A program made the translations under genes and the position numbers. The notes beneath the pieces are model-generated. The model searched no databases and was not told the DNA's origin. It saw only the letters and a list, made by a program, of their open reading frames with translations. Positions 19,786 to 46,582 of a stretch of 64,000 bases of DNA are shown piece by piece (position 1 is the first letter of the stretch; each line of letters opens with the position of its first letter). The DNA comes from an uncultured Saprospiraceae bacterium (GTDB lineage Bacteria > Bacteroidota > Bacteroidia > Chitinophagales > Saprospiraceae): contig CAKZLL010000230.1 of the NCBI GenBank assembly GCA_937125475.1, positions 1-64,000 of the forward strand, read 5' to 3'.

Positions 19786-21189
19786 ATGAAATTTATTATA
19801 TCAACCATATTCTTTATTGTGAGCCTAAGTCCTTATATGAATGGACAAGGTTGTGGTGCTGTACCATCAGCTGATCAAGTTAAAGCTATGGAAGATGCAC
19901 TTCCAAAAACAAGAAGTTTTAATGGAACAATAACTAGAGGAATTGTTGATGTTCCTATTCAAATCCATGTTGTACGAAATAGTAAAGGGAAAAAAGGCAT
20001 TCGTCCTTATCGAATCAAAGAAGCAATTGATGATTTGAATGGTCATTTTATATCGGCTAATATTCGTTTTGTTCAACTTAAAAACATTAATTATATTGAT
20101 AATGATATTCATTTTGATTTCAATGTGAAGAATGAAGCAGAATTAGGGCGTAAGCACGATATTAGTAAAGTTGTTAATCTTTATATCGTTAATAGTATTT
20201 CTAGTGGTCAAGTCTCTTTGTGTGGTTATGCTTATTTTCCTCCTGGGAATGATCGAGTAATGATGTCTAAAAGTTGTATTAATAATGGTAGTACACTTCC
20301 GCACGAATTAGGACATTATTTCATGTTGTATCACACGCATGGAATTTCTAATAATGGTACAACAGACGAATTAGTGAAACGAGATAATTGTCATATTGCT
20401 GGAGATCGAGTATGTGATACAGAAGCTGATCCGAATATTGCAGGTTTGGTAGATGCTAATTGCGTATATATTGGAAGAAAGCGAGATAAAAAAGGAAGGG
20501 TTTTTAAACCAGACCCATATAATATGATGTCTTATTCAACGAAGGCTTGCCGTCAAAAATTTACTAAGGGGCAGTTTAAGCGGATGAATTATGCGATACT
20601 GAATCATAGAGATTATTTAAGGTTTCCACCTACAAAAGTAACAAACCCTACTCCTTTAGCCCAAAAGGCCGCGAGCATGTCAGGAAGTTTAATGTTGGAA
20701 ATTGCAGAAAAAAGTTTGCCGACTTCTTTGGATCAAAATTTATTTAAATCAAAAGACGGCTATTATAAAGGAACAAATTATCAATTATTTATTTCTAATG
20801 AACAAACCGCCTATGTTTATGTGATTGGCTCAAATTTGAAAAATGAAATGAATGTTTTATTCCCACTCGAAAATCAAAGCGCTTTAATCTTTAAAGGAAA
20901 AGAGAAACTAGCTTTGCCAGGAGCAGGATATATGTATCAAATGGATAATGTAAAAGGACAGGATTATGTTTGTGTTTTATATTCGAAACGTCCATTGAGG
21001 ATAGAGGAAGTAGTAGGGGATATGAAGCAATCTTCTGGTAATTTTATGCAACGCTTATATAAGGTGTTAGGTGAAAATGTAGTGCCGCTCAATGAGGTGA
21101 AATATGAGCAAAAAGAAAAAATTCTTTTTTCGGCAACTACTCAGAACGCTTATATCGTTCCAGTTGTAGTAGAAATAAAGCACTTATAA
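19786..21189 (+). CDS. Secreted M43-like zinc metalloprotease with DUF4384-like C terminus
   Basis: A 467-residue exported protein with a signal peptide ending near YMNGQG. Residues 50-290 resemble pappalysin/cytophagalysin (M43) proteases: VPIQIHVV, the zinc site HELGHYFMLYH (H173, E174, H177, H183) and the Met-turn NMMSYS. The usual Gly in HExxHxxGxxH is replaced by Met180. Several Cys pairs could form disulfides. Residues about 300-467 look like a DUF4384 domain (YVYVIGSN, LPGAGYMYQM, DYVCVLYSKRPL), a module I associate with caspase-family proteins. The next gene, 78 bases on, is a caspase-fold protein, so the two probably work together. Confidence 0.85.
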   Translation: MKFIISTIFFIVSLSPYMNGQGCGAVPSADQVKAMEDALPKTRSFNGTITRGIVDVPIQIHVVRNSKGKKGIRPYRIKEAIDDLNGHFISANIRFVQLKNINYIDNDIHFDFNVKNEAELGRKHDISKVVNLYIVNSISSGQVSLCGYAYFPPGNDRVMMSKSCINNGSTLPHELGHYFMLYHTHGISNNGTTDELVKRDNCHIAGDRVCDTEADPNIAGLVDANCVYIGRKRDKKGRVFKPDPYNMMSYSTKACRQKFTKGQFKRMNYAILNHRDYLRFPPTKVTNPTPLAQKAASMSGSLMLEIAEKSLPTSLDQNLFKSKDGYYKGTNYQLFISNEQTAYVYVIGSNLKNEMNVLFPLENQSALIFKGKEKLALPGAGYMYQMDNVKGQDYVCVLYSKRPLRIEEVVGDMKQSSGNFMQRLYKVLGENVVPLNEVKYEQKEKILFSATTQNAYIVPVVVEIKHL

Positions 21190-21267
21190 ATATTAAGAAT
21201 ATCTTTAGAAAAAATAGAATAAACAATTAAACAAACAATTAAGATCTACACTCGAAAACCAGTAATT

Positions 21268-23082
21268 ATGGAAGTATTAAAATTAAAAAAAATTACTCAT
21301 ATCATTTTTGCAATAGTTACTTTATTGCTAATTTCAACAAACATGCAAGCTCAAAAGCGAAGCAGTTGCATGTCGGGAGACTGCAAAAATGGTCCTGGCT
21401 TGCAAGTTTGGGAAAATGGAGAACGATATGAAGGATGGTTCAAAAATGGCATGAGAGATGGCTATGGTTTTATGACTTATGAAAATGGGAATACCTATAT
21501 AGGAGAATGGTCTGAAAATCTACGTTATGGTCATGGTGGTATTACTTTTAAGGATCATGAGGTCAAAGTCAAATATGTAGGAGAATGGAAAGCTAATAAT
21601 ATTCAAGGATACGGTTCTTTGCATTTGAAAAGAAATAAATATCAAATTGGTTATTGGAATAAAAATCAATTTAATGCTATTGATAAAGTCAATGTCTGTT
21701 TGGAAGGAGATTGTGAAAATGGTTGGGGAACATTTATTTTTAAAGACCAAAGTTTATACATAGGAGAGTTTAAAGAAGGTTTGAGACACGGACAAGGTAC
21801 TCAAATTTATAAAATGGGGTCAAAATATAAAGGAACACACAAAGATGGAAAAAGAAATGGCTTTGGTATTTATTATTATTTAAATGGAAATAAATACGAA
21901 GGAGAATGGAAAAATGATAAGAAATTTGGTGGAGGGAAATTATATAAACAAGGTAAATTAGATCATGGTGGTGTTTGGGAAAATAACATTTTGATCACTA
22001 AAATAAAGCCGAATGATGTTAAAATGAATAATTTGCCTTCTGCTGATAAAAAAGCTCCAACAATAGAAATTATAGAACCATCTGTCTCTAGAGGACCAAT
22101 CGTAGTTTCAAAGAAAAAAAGAGTAAGGATATTTGGTAAAGTAACTGATCAAAGCGGGGTATCTCAAGTCAGAGTAAGTGGAGCAGTTGCTACATTGAGC
22201 CAAGAAGTGGGTGATACTAGAGAATTTGAAGCTTATGTTTTGTTAGCTGAAAAGCAAAATGATTTTTGGGTAGAAGCAACAGATACAAAAGGTAATGTGA
22301 TTAAGATTGATTTTACTATTGTATATGAGAAAGAGAATGAAACGATTCCTTCAGATCTTTCTGATAAGCCGCCTATCATTAATTCTAATGATAAAGCACC
22401 AAGAACGGCCTTAGTGATTGGAAATAGTACTTATTCTGATGCGCCTTTGCGTAATCCAATGAATGATGCGAACTCAATGGCGAAGAAATTAACCAAGTTA
22501 GGTTTTGATGTTACATTGGAATTGAATATCAAGCAAAGGGATTTGAAAACAGTCATCCGTGATTTTGGTAAAAAATTAAAAGCTAAAGGCGGAGTAGGGT
22601 TGTTTTATTATGCAGGACATGGAATCCAATTCAATGGAGATAATTATTTAGTACCTGTTAATGCAGATATTGAAAAACAATTGGATGTCGAAGTCGAAGC
22701 GGTTAAATTACAACGAGTTTTGAATGAATTAGAACATGCTAATAATCAAATGAATATTGTTATTTTGGATGCTTGTAGAGACAATCCTTATGCTAACTTG
22801 CGATCTGCAAGCGGTAAGGGGTTAGCGCCTGTTTATGGTGCGCCTTTAGGTACTTTTATTGCTTATGCAACGTCTCCAGGACAAGCAGCATCTGATGGAA
22901 ATGGTAATCATGGGCTTTATACACAAGAATTATTAGGTGCATTAGATAAATCATCAGGAATGAAAATTGAAGATCTTTTTAAGGTTGTTCGTGCTCAGGT
23001 TCGTCAAAAATCTGATGGTAAACAAATTCCTTGGGAAAACTCTTCTTTAGAAGGTAATTTTATTATCAATCCTAAAAAATAG
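21268..23082 (+). CDS. Secreted MORN-repeat / caspase-fold (C14) protease
   Basis: A 604-residue protein with a signal peptide ending near NMQAQ. Residues about 30-240 carry MORN repeats (YEGWFKNGMRDGYG, YIGEWSENLRYGHG, YIGEFKEGLRHGQG, YEGEWKNDKKFGGG) with two CxxGDCxNGxG caps. Residues about 265-350 form an Ig-like domain (VRIFGKVTDQSGVSQVRVSG). Residues about 379-600 are a caspase-like p20 domain with catalytic His451 (YYAGHG) and Cys503 (LDACRDNP). MORN repeats often bind lipids or proteins. It lies between the M43-like protease and, 14 bases downstream, an EcoRI-type methyltransferase. Substrate and activation signal are unknown. Confidence 0.93.
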   Translation: MEVLKLKKITHIIFAIVTLLLISTNMQAQKRSSCMSGDCKNGPGLQVWENGERYEGWFKNGMRDGYGFMTYENGNTYIGEWSENLRYGHGGITFKDHEVKVKYVGEWKANNIQGYGSLHLKRNKYQIGYWNKNQFNAIDKVNVCLEGDCENGWGTFIFKDQSLYIGEFKEGLRHGQGTQIYKMGSKYKGTHKDGKRNGFGIYYYLNGNKYEGEWKNDKKFGGGKLYKQGKLDHGGVWENNILITKIKPNDVKMNNLPSADKKAPTIEIIEPSVSRGPIVVSKKKRVRIFGKVTDQSGVSQVRVSGAVATLSQEVGDTREFEAYVLLAEKQNDFWVEATDTKGNVIKIDFTIVYEKENETIPSDLSDKPPIINSNDKAPRTALVIGNSTYSDAPLRNPMNDANSMAKKLTKLGFDVTLELNIKQRDLKTVIRDFGKKLKAKGGVGLFYYAGHGIQFNGDNYLVPVNADIEKQLDVEVEAVKLQRVLNELEHANNQMNIVILDACRDNPYANLRSASGKGLAPVYGAPLGTFIAYATSPGQAASDGNGNHGLYTQELLGALDKSSGMKIEDLFKVVRAQVRQKSDGKQIPWENSSLEGNFIINPKK

Positions 23083-23096
23083 CATAGAGGTTAACA

Positions 23097-24095
23097 ATGG
23101 CAAGAAAAGCATCTAATAAATTACTACAAAAAGCTAAAAAATTAAAAAGTGATGAATTTTATACACAACTTTCAGATATTGAAAGTGAGCTAAAACATTA
23201 TAAAAATCACTTTAAAGACAAAGTAGTTTATTGTAATTGTGATGATCCAAGAGTTAGTAATTTTTTTAAATATTTTTCCTCGAATTTCAAAGAATTAGGA
23301 TTAAAAAAATTAATATCAGCTTGTTATAGAAATCAAGAGATAGATTTATTCAGTAGTAAAAAGACTGAAAATGGATTTTACTCTGAATACGAAGGCGAGA
23401 AAGTAAAAAAAGATGTAATTAATAATGATAAAATTGATATAATTCGTTTCAAGGGAGATGGCGATTTTAGAAGTAAGGAGAGTATCGAGCTTTTAAAACA
23501 ATCTGATATTGTTGTGACGAATCCACCATTTTCATTATTTCGGGAATATGTTGCTCAATTGATAAAATATGATAAGAAGTTTTTGATAATTGGGAATATA
23601 AATGCGATAACTTATAAAGAGATATTCAAATTAATTAAAGGGAATAGGGCTTGGTTAGGAATAAATTTGGGAAGAGGTATTTCTGGCTTTATAGTTCCTG
23701 AACATTATGAACTTTATGGTACAGAAGCGCGTATAGATAACTTGGGTAATAGAATAATTTCTCCAAATAATTGTTTATGGCTAACAAATTTAGATACATC
23801 TAAACGACATGAAGATATAGTTCTTTCAAAAGTATATTATGGGAACGAAAGCCAATATCTTAAATATGATAACTATGATGGTATTAATGTGAATAAGACC
23901 AAAGATATACCAATGGACTATAAAGGATTTATGGGAGTTCCAATAACATTCTTACATAAATTTAACCCTGATCAATTTGAAATAATAAAATTTAGAAAAG
24001 GAAATGATGAAAAGGATTTATCAATTAATGGTAAATGTCCATACTTTAGAATTTTAATCAAAAACAGAAGATTACAGCAAAGCCAAATAACATAA
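23097..24095 (+). CDS. EcoRI-family adenine-specific DNA methyltransferase
   Basis: A 332-residue cytoplasmic protein resembling M.EcoRI along its length: KSDEFYTQLSDIESELKHY, VYCNCDDPRVSNFFKYF, and the catalytic motif IV NPPF starting at Asn142, followed by SLFREYVAQLI. M.EcoRI methylates the inner adenine of GAATTC; the target here is not certain. No restriction endonuclease gene is adjacent, so it may be an orphan. It starts 14 bases after the MORN-caspase gene and is closed by a perfect palindromic terminator, suggesting the two share a transcript even though one product is exported and the other is not. Confidence 0.92.
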   Translation: MARKASNKLLQKAKKLKSDEFYTQLSDIESELKHYKNHFKDKVVYCNCDDPRVSNFFKYFSSNFKELGLKKLISACYRNQEIDLFSSKKTENGFYSEYEGEKVKKDVINNDKIDIIRFKGDGDFRSKESIELLKQSDIVVTNPPFSLFREYVAQLIKYDKKFLIIGNINAITYKEIFKLIKGNRAWLGINLGRGISGFIVPEHYELYGTEARIDNLGNRIISPNNCLWLTNLDTSKRHEDIVLSKVYYGNESQYLKYDNYDGINVNKTKDIPMDYKGFMGVPITFLHKFNPDQFEIIKFRKGNDEKDLSINGKCPYFRILIKNRRLQQSQIT

Positions 24096-24137
24096 ACGAA
24101 TAACAATAAAAGCCGTCAGGGCATTATCGTGAAACGT

Positions 24138-24195
24138 AAAAACCCGTTGAGGCTAAATTTATTATTAATAATAAATTTAGCCTCAACGGGTTTTT
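24138..24195. terminator. Perfect 58-base palindromic terminator
   Basis: Two 29-base arms are exact reverse complements with no spacer. Each outer end is AAAAACCCGTTGAGGC or its complement, and the right arm ends GGGTTTTT. It follows the methyltransferase gene and would stop transcription from either side. Confidence 0.85.
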
Positions 24196-24777
24196 ATATT
24201 ATTTCTATTCAAAAAACTAGATAGAATTTAAATAATTCTATTCCTATCATTTATCATTGATAAAAATCTAGTGACCGACAAAAAAAAGTAATATTGTTGA
24301 AAATACAAATATTACTATTGTTTAATATTATTGACTTTGAAGCTAGTTGATTGATTAACAGTGTTTTAAGTTTATATGTTTTGTTTATTGAAATGTCACA
24401 TTAAAGTGTATTTAAGATGTTTTAAAGTCTTTTTTAGAGCTTTTATTGTTTTTAATCATGTCTCATAATTGAAATTTATTGATCTGTGTTTTTTTTATAT
24501 GAAAATATCATATTTGTGACACTGGTTTTAATTATATGATTTAATATCTATATTTTAGTTATTTGGAATATTATTCCGAATAATGTGTTTTTTGTTATTT
24601 AATTAAGAATTAAATTTTGATAATAATTGTTTTTTTAAAATATTAAACTTTGGTGCTTGCGTTTTTATCTTGGAATATAAAACTACTTCATTCATTATTG
24701 TGATAAAGTTGGCATGGTTTTGTCAATATAGTAAGTATCCAAACAAATAATACAATAAACTAACTAATACTAACGAC
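24196..24777. other. AT-rich intergenic region, no gene seen
   Basis: Nearly 580 bases of highly AT-rich sequence. No open frame of note, tRNA-like fold or strong hairpin was recognised. The promoter of the SPOR-like gene should be near the right end, but no full consensus is present. Confidence 0.5.
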
Positions 24778-43233: not shown

Positions 43234-44307
43234 ATGAATACAAGATTACTACTATTATTTTTAATTATATCCAACAACCTAATAGCACAGTGTATTTCTG
43301 GGGATTGTGACAATGGGGAAGGTACTTATATTTACCAAGATAAAAGCACTTACACAGGAGATTTTGTAGGTGGTCTTGCTGAAGGTTATGGTATCTGTCA
43401 ATATACAAATGGAAATCGCTATATGGGACATTGGAAAAAACACAAATTTCATGGCGAGGGTGTTTTTTATAAAAAAGAAGATGACAACGTTAAAGGGTTA
43501 TGGGAAGATGGAAAATTGACTAAGCTGTTAAAGATTGAGAATGATAATGCTATACCAAAAGTTTGGGCAATTGTAGTTGGTGTCGCGTCATATAATCATC
43601 TACGTCGATTGAAGTTCACGGATGATGATGCTTATAAAATGTATGCTTTCTTGAAAAGCCCTGAAGGTGGAGCGATAACAGACAAACAGGCTAAAATACT
43701 AATAGACGAAAGCGCAACGAAACAAAATATCATTCAAACGATGCGTTCTATTGCTAAAAAAGCGAGTTATAATGATGTAATTATTTTTTACTTTTCAGGT
43801 CATGGTGATCAAGATAGTTTTTTGCCATATGATTTTGATGGAGATGATATTAATAAATTGACTTTCAATGAAGTCAATACTATCTTAGGATTGTCTAAAG
43901 CTAGTCGTAAAATATGCATCGCTGATGCTTGTCATTCGGGTGGTTTGGTAACCGCAAAAGGAAAAGGATTTGATGGAAATGTAGCAAAGAATTACTTTTC
44001 TCTCTCTAAAAAAAATGCTAAAACAGCGATTTTAGTTTCTTCACAAGCTGGAGAAGTTTCAATGGAGAATGCAACATTGCGCCAAGGAACATTCAGTTAT
44101 TTTTTATTAAAAGGATTGAAAGGAAACGCAGATAGAGATCGTGATAATGTTGTAACGATTACAGAGCTATATAATTATGTGAGCCGTCAAGTGAAATCAT
44201 ATTCTCGAAATGACCAAAACCCAGCTCTTTTTGGAACATATGATAAGGATATGCCGATCGCTAAGGTCAGAGGGCATGGAAGGTTATTAACTAAAAAAAG
44301 CCCTTAA
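43234..44307 (+). CDS. Secreted MORN-repeat / caspase-fold protease, second copy
   Basis: A 357-residue exported protein with a signal peptide ending near SNNLIAQ. The mature N terminus starts with CISGDCDNGEG, then MORN repeats (YTGDFVGGLAEGYG, YMGHWKKHKFHGEG) to about residue 95. The C14 caspase-like domain spans about 108-330: WAIVVGVASYNHL, FTDDDAYKMYAFLKSPEGG, catalytic His190 (FYFSGHG) and Cys233 (IADACHSGG), SSQAGEVS and LRQGTFSYFLLKGL. It is closer to the copy at 45467 than to the one at 21268. No interaction partner is adjacent. Confidence 0.93.
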   Translation: MNTRLLLLFLIISNNLIAQCISGDCDNGEGTYIYQDKSTYTGDFVGGLAEGYGICQYTNGNRYMGHWKKHKFHGEGVFYKKEDDNVKGLWEDGKLTKLLKIENDNAIPKVWAIVVGVASYNHLRRLKFTDDDAYKMYAFLKSPEGGAITDKQAKILIDESATKQNIIQTMRSIAKKASYNDVIIFYFSGHGDQDSFLPYDFDGDDINKLTFNEVNTILGLSKASRKICIADACHSGGLVTAKGKGFDGNVAKNYFSLSKKNAKTAILVSSQAGEVSMENATLRQGTFSYFLLKGLKGNADRDRDNVVTITELYNYVSRQVKSYSRNDQNPALFGTYDKDMPIAKVRGHGRLLTKKSP

Positions 44308-45466: not shown

Positions 45467-46582
45467 ATGAAGTACTTTACATTGACTTTTGCCTTTTTTA
45501 CTATGACAATAATGCTTTCTGCGCAGTGTGTCAGCGGTGATTGTGATAATGGTGAAGGGACTTATGTTTACAAAGATGGTACAAAATACATAGGTGCATT
45601 TAAAAGTGGTAAGGCACACGGAACAGGTACTTGCTATTACTCTAATGGAGATAAATATACTGGTCAATGGGCTGGTCATGATTTTAATGGTAAGGGAACT
45701 TTAAAGAAGAAAAGCGGTAAAGTCTTAGCAGGAGTGTGGCAAAGAGGTAAGTTGATTGCACGAGAAGGCACTAAATCGGTTAGACAATCGAAATTAACGG
45801 CATCGAAAGGAGGAAAGAAAATATTAAAAAAACCTAAGGTTTGGGCAGTTATTGTTGGTGTCGCAAGGTATATGCATATGCAAAGTTTGAATTTTACGGA
45901 TGATGATGCCTATAGAATGTATGCTTTTTTGAAAAGCCCTGAAGGTGGTGCATTACCTGACGAACAAGTCAAAATCCTTGTAGATGAAAGTGCTACTAAA
46001 AAGAAGATTGAACAAACTTTAACAGAAGTTTTTGCGAAAGCAGAAAAAGAGGATATGATTATTTTTTATTTTTCTGGTCATGGCGAAAAAGAAGGCTTAC
46101 TACCTATTGACTATGATGGTTATGATAATGTATTAGAACATGGGAAAATAAAAGATTTGCTTAATCAGTCAAAAGCAAAATATAAATTGTGTATCGCTGA
46201 TGCTTGTTACGCTGGTACAATGGAAGAAACATTGACAGAGACAAAATCAGAGGCAGAGAAAAAACGAATCAATAAGTTATATTCTGATCCAATGAAGGAT
46301 TTTAATAATACTTCTCTTGCTTTATTTATGTCTTCTCAGGCTAAGGAAACATCGGTTGAAAATGCAGGCTTGCGCCAAGGGATTTTTAGTCATTTTCTAT
46401 TAAGAGCCTTGAAAGGTGAAGCAGATTTGAATAAAGATGGAGGCGTAACATTATTGGAAACATTCAATTTTGTAAAGAAGCATGTCGTTTTCTATACGAA
46501 TGATTATCAAACACCAATTATGGTCGGAAATAATGTTAAAAAAGATTTGATCCTTAGTATTACTAGAGAAGAACGTCCTTAA
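45467..46582 (+). CDS. Secreted MORN-repeat / caspase-fold protease, third copy
   Basis: A 371-residue exported protein with a signal peptide ending near IMLSAQ. It opens with CVSGDCDNGEG and MORN repeats (YIGAFKSGKAHGTG, YTGQWAGHDFNGKG), then a basic linker (SKGGKKILKKPK). The caspase-like domain has WAVIVGVARYMHM, FTDDDAYRMYAFLKSPEGG, catalytic His205 (FYFSGHG) and Cys247 (IADACYAGT). An acidic/basic insert of about 30 residues (ETLTETKSEAEKKR) follows the Cys; the position fits a processing loop. It then has LRQGIFSHFLLRALKGEADLN. Clearly a paralogue of the 43234 gene. Confidence 0.93.
   Translation: MKYFTLTFAFFTMTIMLSAQCVSGDCDNGEGTYVYKDGTKYIGAFKSGKAHGTGTCYYSNGDKYTGQWAGHDFNGKGTLKKKSGKVLAGVWQRGKLIAREGTKSVRQSKLTASKGGKKILKKPKVWAVIVGVARYMHMQSLNFTDDDAYRMYAFLKSPEGGALPDEQVKILVDESATKKKIEQTLTEVFAKAEKEDMIIFYFSGHGEKEGLLPIDYDGYDNVLEHGKIKDLLNQSKAKYKLCIADACYAGTMEETLTETKSEAEKKRINKLYSDPMKDFNNTSLALFMSSQAKETSVENAGLRQGIFSHFLLRALKGEADLNKDGGVTLLETFNFVKKHVVFYTNDYQTPIMVGNNVKKDLILSITREERP

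Follow-up and report, generated by a model that had tools for sequence, protein, structure and literature searches.

This locus raises the question of whether three closely spaced genes, coding for a metalloprotease, a caspase-fold protease and a DNA methyltransferase, make up one composite system or are separate things that happen to lie in a row. The window analysed (the whole stretch of 64,000 nucleotides, contig C230) belongs to a genome of 5.76 Mb in 559 contigs that is 92.4% complete. The original prediction of three same-direction genes with gaps of 78 bp (gene A to gene B) and 14 bp (gene B to methylase), ending in a strong palindromic terminator, was confirmed by the coordinates and by the inverted repeat. 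Also, Pfam gave the same names as had been predicted for the M43-DUF4384 protein, the MORN-caspase and the EcoRI-type methylase. The features used below are as follows.

19786..21189, + strand: gene A, M43 (pappalysin-like) metalloprotease with C-terminal DUF4384 (467 aa; Pfam)
19852..19857, + strand: Cys23-Gly24 codons of gene A, predicted cysteine switch (conservation; same motif as mirolysin Cys23-Gly24)
19912..19920, + strand: Arg43-Ser44-Phe45 codons of gene A, candidate cleavage site of the partner caspase (invariant in 9/9 paired orthologues)
19933..19938, + strand: Thr50-Arg51 codons of gene A, aligned with the mirolysin/ulilysin autoactivation bond (phmmer alignment to ulilysin)
20302..20334, + strand: zinc site HELGHYFMLYH of gene A (His173, His177, His183; sequence)
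21268..23082, + strand: gene B, MORN / Ig-like / caspase-fold (C14) protease (604 aa; Pfam)
23097..24095, + strand: EcoRI-type DNA adenine methyltransferase, solitary (332 aa; PF13651, EcoRI_methylase, 448 bits)
24137..24196, + strand: perfect 30+30 inverted repeat, bidirectional intrinsic terminator (sequence and folding energy)

The inverted repeat has a folding energy of -41.4 kcal/mol; with A and T tracts on either side, it can be read as a terminator on both strands. A dispersed repeat or an integron attC site was ruled out, as the palindrome is perfectly symmetrical and occurs once in the genome. An Rfam scan of the window gave zero matches, and promoter consensus scans were uninformative, with fewer sites than in shuffled sequence. 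Signal peptides of the Sec type were seen by eye at the N-termini of genes A and B and none at the methylase, which would place the two proteases outside the cytoplasm.

We conclude that the three genes are two separate things and not one composite system. Taken together, the reading we favour, with modest confidence, is that of an extracytoplasmic two-protease module in which the caspase unlocks the gene A zymogen, followed by an unrelated orphan M.EcoRI. The partnership of the proteases is recurrent and real. Orthologues of genes A and B are adjacent in a congener (G001; 66-67% and 65-66% identity), and the same pair is found in two genomes of other genera (G004 and G006) and at five more loci (in G131, G207, G206, G256 and G130), giving three Saprospiraceae genera in total. 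In a fourth genus (G087, locus L103) the neighbour of an M43-DUF4384 gene codes for a MORN protein whose caspase domain is divergent. The window's own genome holds a second pair on contig C193 (L075), where a C1 papain-like protease-DUF4384 gene is followed by a caspase gene. Some close relatives of gene B, in a form of ~410 aa, are unpaired (L073 was inspected). It may be noted that the window has two further short MORN and C14 caspase genes at 43234-44307 and 45467-46582 (357 and 371 aa, with DACHSGG and DACYAGT, respectively), neither with an adjoining DUF4384 gene.

The link of DUF4384 to caspases was surveyed in the family (298 genomes searched for DUF4384, 79 neighbourhoods fetched) and in the phylum (395 Bacteroidota genomes searched, 40 neighbourhoods fetched). 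In the class counts a protein was taken as linked if a C14 gene was present on the same strand within 1.5 kb. By this definition 11 of the 14 distinct M43-DUF4384 cases sampled in the family were linked, along with 29 of 49 C1-DUF4384 proteins without a membrane anchor, 7 of 8 DUF4384-only proteins and 0 of 32 membrane-anchored C1-DUF4384 proteins. Combining the non-anchored proteases, a group that takes in some lipoprotein-like and truncated proteins, the counts are 40/63 versus 0/32 for the anchored ones (Fisher p ~1e-10, for sequences that are not phylogenetically independent). In the other 23 of the 63 cases a caspase was not found within 1.5 kb, some of these being at contig ends. The caspase proximity of other genes at the same loci (40 near, 329 not) was tried as a background rate, but it is biased by how the loci were picked and the anchored subfamily was therefore taken as the control. 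Members of that subfamily have a cytoplasmic N-terminus rich in glycine and a single membrane anchor (L086, L093, L104, L115 and similar loci).

In the phylum sample, a C14 gene was present within 3 kb at 28 of the 40 DUF4384 loci (27 on the same strand), and the DUF4384-caspase partnership is phylum-wide in Bacteroidota. The front part of the caspase varies (MORN, DUF1036 with MORN, WD40, or TPR with DUF7477), the gene order varies too, and the protease head on DUF4384 is either M43 or C1 papain-like. C14 and DUF4384 are also fused in a single chain (L079, L082, G016 and G018); cyanobacterial caspases with DUF4384 are known (PMC7475262), and alphaproteobacterial pseudo-orthocaspases bear a trypsin-like domain together with DUF4384 (PMC6426788). 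Fusion and neighbourhood in so many arrangements are good evidence of a functional link, for loci that are not phylogenetically independent. The 28 loci of the phylum sample with a nearby C14 gene take in six secreted DUF4384-only proteins of ~230 aa that abut it directly (L180, L181, L183, L186, L187 and L215), the caspase at L180 carrying WD40 repeats.

The methylase tells a different story. It has an NPPF motif at 142-145, and its nearest Bacteroidota relatives (79.9, 79.5 and 77.4% identity) all three lie directly behind R.EcoRI. Enterobacterial plasmid copies are ~74-75% identical, and the two that were inspected each lie behind a gene of R.EcoRI size, one annotated as a restriction endonuclease. 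AGAGGT, the leader ahead of the methylase start, is similar to those of the R.EcoRI-linked genes, which are purine-rich. Yet R.EcoRI (PF02963) was not found in the window's own genome. The methylase is thus an orphan M.EcoRI standing where R would be expected, and solitary methylases are a well-known class (PMC4176335). Most likely its endonuclease was lost and the gene came to lie behind that of the caspase, whose transcript it may share. Its present role, if any, is likely to be the protection of GAATTC sites from EcoRI-type restriction.

In a composite defence system, the methylase would mark self DNA and the proteases would act as executioners. The 14-bp gap, the shared direction and the common terminator are in keeping with this, and PADLOC models for the caspase and for a Type II MTase match. 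But the methylase is missing beside the pair in other genomes wherever the gene after the caspase is readable, and a caspase neighbour was found at 0 of 23 other EcoRI-type methylase loci. Also, the proteases appear to be exported while the methylase is cytoplasmic, and the nearest methylases belong to R.EcoRI pairs. We therefore regard such a system as very improbable. In the congener (88% complete) the methylase was not found; there the contig breaks off within the caspase gene, so that the methylase side and the exact empty site are unreadable. Thus, of the order that the original prediction expected to recur in related genomes, the protease part was found again in the same order in three genera, which bears out the view that the two protease types are matched, and the methylase-caspase part was not (0/23 loci). 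Of the two options that it had offered, capture of the methylase by an unrelated transcript fits better than a composite system.

Alternatively, the methylase may keep a partner, R.EcoRI or some other endonuclease, encoded on a plasmid left out of the bin or in the 8% of the genome that the assembly lacks. The R.EcoRI gene could be missing from an assembly that is 92% complete, and GAATTC is about threefold under-represented (11 sites versus 30.7 expected in the window; 829 sites in the whole genome). However, the three R.EcoRI-linked relatives each have R directly next to M, and both neighbours of the methylase are known here: a 167-aa ORF and the caspase gene. A shortage of GAATTC was likewise seen in G004 and in G001, a genome in which no copy of the methylase turned up; the depletion was therefore set aside as a sign of EcoRI pressure and not used as evidence. 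On these grounds a hidden partner seems quite unlikely.

The EcoRI-type methylase family was present in 4 of 41 relatives (own genome counted), with R.EcoRI in one of them (G036), and in 20 of 395 genomes of the phylum; in the 3 carriers among the 40 other relatives the gene lies away from the protease pair. Only 3 of the 23 methylase neighbourhoods examined have an adjoining R.EcoRI. At several others the methylase gene is closely trailed, often overlapping by about 4 bp, by a gene of ~360-390 aa (L120, L121, L122, L129 and similar). Four of these trailing genes were run through Pfam and all four gave GmrSD_N (DUF262) with HNH, so that the two genes apparently form a restriction-modification system that relies on another endonuclease. 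At another locus (L071, G004 contig C17, 9765-12402) an EcoRI-type methylase lies beside an NgoFVII-like PLD nuclease.

Coming back to the proteases, gene A matches Peptidase_M43 with 40.7 bits (cut-off 23) and DUF4384 (PF14326) with 41.5 bits (cut-off 27). Its Met-turn NMMSY spans residues 246-250, and its best PDB match is ulilysin (phmmer E 5.7e-7); by analogy with ulilysin-like relatives it is predicted to cut before Arg. An AlphaFold2 model of gene A made from two sequences only had a mean pLDDT of 29, too low for use. In mirolysin the 34-residue pro-segment carries a Cys-Gly motif whose Cys23 keeps the enzyme latent until self-activation at Ser54-Arg55 (PMC6949598). In the nine paired gene A orthologues, Cys23 is kept in all and Gly24 in seven. 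Autoactivation of mirolysin is slow, taking about two weeks (PMC8259862), which leaves room for a dedicated activator. Gene B matches Peptidase_C14 with 145 bits over positions 2-232 of the 233 in the model and MORN with 59.5 bits, with a weak Ig-like Glucodextran_B match under the cut-off (20.9 bits). Its catalytic dyad, His451 and Cys503, is present. So are the S1-pocket residues Asp400 and Asp501, which match Asp95 and Asp211 of TbMC2 by motif alignment. Two such aspartates accommodate basic P1 residues in metacaspases (PMC6426788), and they predict that gene B cleaves after Arg.

Between Cys23 and Thr50, the sole invariant residues in the nine paired orthologues are Arg43-Ser44-Phe45 (RSF). 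All nine are paired with a MORN/DACRDN caspase; they represent one lineage of three genera, and common descent may account for some of the conservation. The position reads DSF in L103, beside the divergent caspase, and EQF in three M43-DUF4384 proteins of one genus that have no caspase neighbour (L111, L159 and L168), and RSF is absent from the unpaired M43 proteins in the alignment. C1 heads whose neighbour is a DACR[DN]N caspase also show an Arg immediately ahead of the junction aromatic (TRAY, ARSY, QRNY, KRNY, TRGLY). A strict link of the junction Arg to the DACRDN subtype was considered, and was weakened by the phylum-wide sample. The M43 protein at L110 lacks RSF beside a DACRDN caspase without MORN, and some C1 heads next to caspases of other subtypes likewise carry a junction Arg (MRGDY in L201, L202 and L208; TRS in L157 and L088), so that motif and caspase subtype do not strictly go together. 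From the invariant RSF, the Arg of the C1 heads and both pocket aspartates, we propose that gene B cleaves gene A after Arg43.

The pair probably works as an activation cascade. Gene A would be made as a latent M43 zymogen, with Cys23 of a pro-segment of ~28 residues plugging the zinc site. The MORN repeats may sense for, or scaffold, gene B to give an active Arg-specific caspase-like protease, which would cut after Arg43 (KTR|SFN) so that the Cys-switch segment is removed or loosened. The freed metalloprotease would then trim itself at Thr50|Arg51 and go on to degrade its targets, while DUF4384 may dock or tether the protease to its caspase partners. Separately, the M gene of an EcoRI-type system, without its endonuclease, would have inserted, bringing along a leader and a terminator of its own, at a site 14 bp past the caspase gene, where it could be expressed by read-through.

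The direction of the cascade could also be reversed, with the ulilysin-like M43 protease, cutting before Arg, activating the caspase, or the activation could be mutual. Basic-residue specificity is known for relatives of both proteases (PMC6949598, PMC7475262), adjacency has no direction, and the linkers of the caspase chain also contain Arg and Lys. However, the RSF site sits in gene A, and most pairs have a C1 papain-like head instead of M43. The caspase is the constant part while the heads are swapped, which favours it as the activator common to these pairs and makes a reversed direction unlikely. We also doubt a reading in which both proteases serve as co-regulated effectors in a single secreted complex, for instance for protein degradation or as a contact-dependent weapon, with DUF4384 only as a tether and neither processing the other. 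The headless DUF4384-only proteins beside caspases mean that a partner with DUF4384 is not necessarily a zymogen, but a mere complex leaves the invariant RSF in an otherwise variable pro-segment unexplained. We keep to activation of gene A by the caspase.

A wider form of this reading is possible and is offered tentatively: DUF4384 may be a general partner domain of bacterial caspases, in a switch whose caspase bears the sensor (MORN, WD40 or TPR) and whose zymogens, unlocked by that caspase outside the cytoplasm, are interchangeable (M43, C1, trypsin-like). If true, this modular exported two-protease switch would be a bacterial counterpart of the caspase cascade, placed outside the cytoplasm. 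Bacterial caspases are common and their known substrates few, so an adjoining zymogen with a candidate cleavage site is a concrete substrate candidate. Also DUF4384, mentioned in only five of the open-access papers searched, gains its first functional hypothesis.

Compared with the EcoRI restriction-modification system, the methylase is 73-80% identical to those of R.EcoRI pairs and has a similar start and purine-rich leader, but the endonuclease was not found and the gene lies behind a caspase gene. Gene A has in common with the pappalysin family M43B (mirolysin, ulilysin) the zinc motif, the Met-turn, a Cys-Gly switch directly behind the signal peptide and an X-Arg activation bond in the same place. 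It differs in the DUF4384 tail, the additional invariant RSF, the adjoining gene for a partner caspase, the lack of a T9SS C-terminal domain recognised by Pfam, and Met180, a position taken by Asp in mirolysin and by Gly in most metzincins. Gene B shares the His-Cys dyad and the two acidic S1-pocket aspartates with bacterial orthocaspases (Peptidase_C14), and differs in its predicted export, its MORN and Ig front and the partner protease gene next door. The alphaproteobacterial pseudo-orthocaspase (PMC6426788) likewise unites a caspase fold, a second protease and DUF4384, but in one chain with a degenerate QC dyad, whereas here they are divided over two genes, with an intact dyad and an M43 or C1 head.
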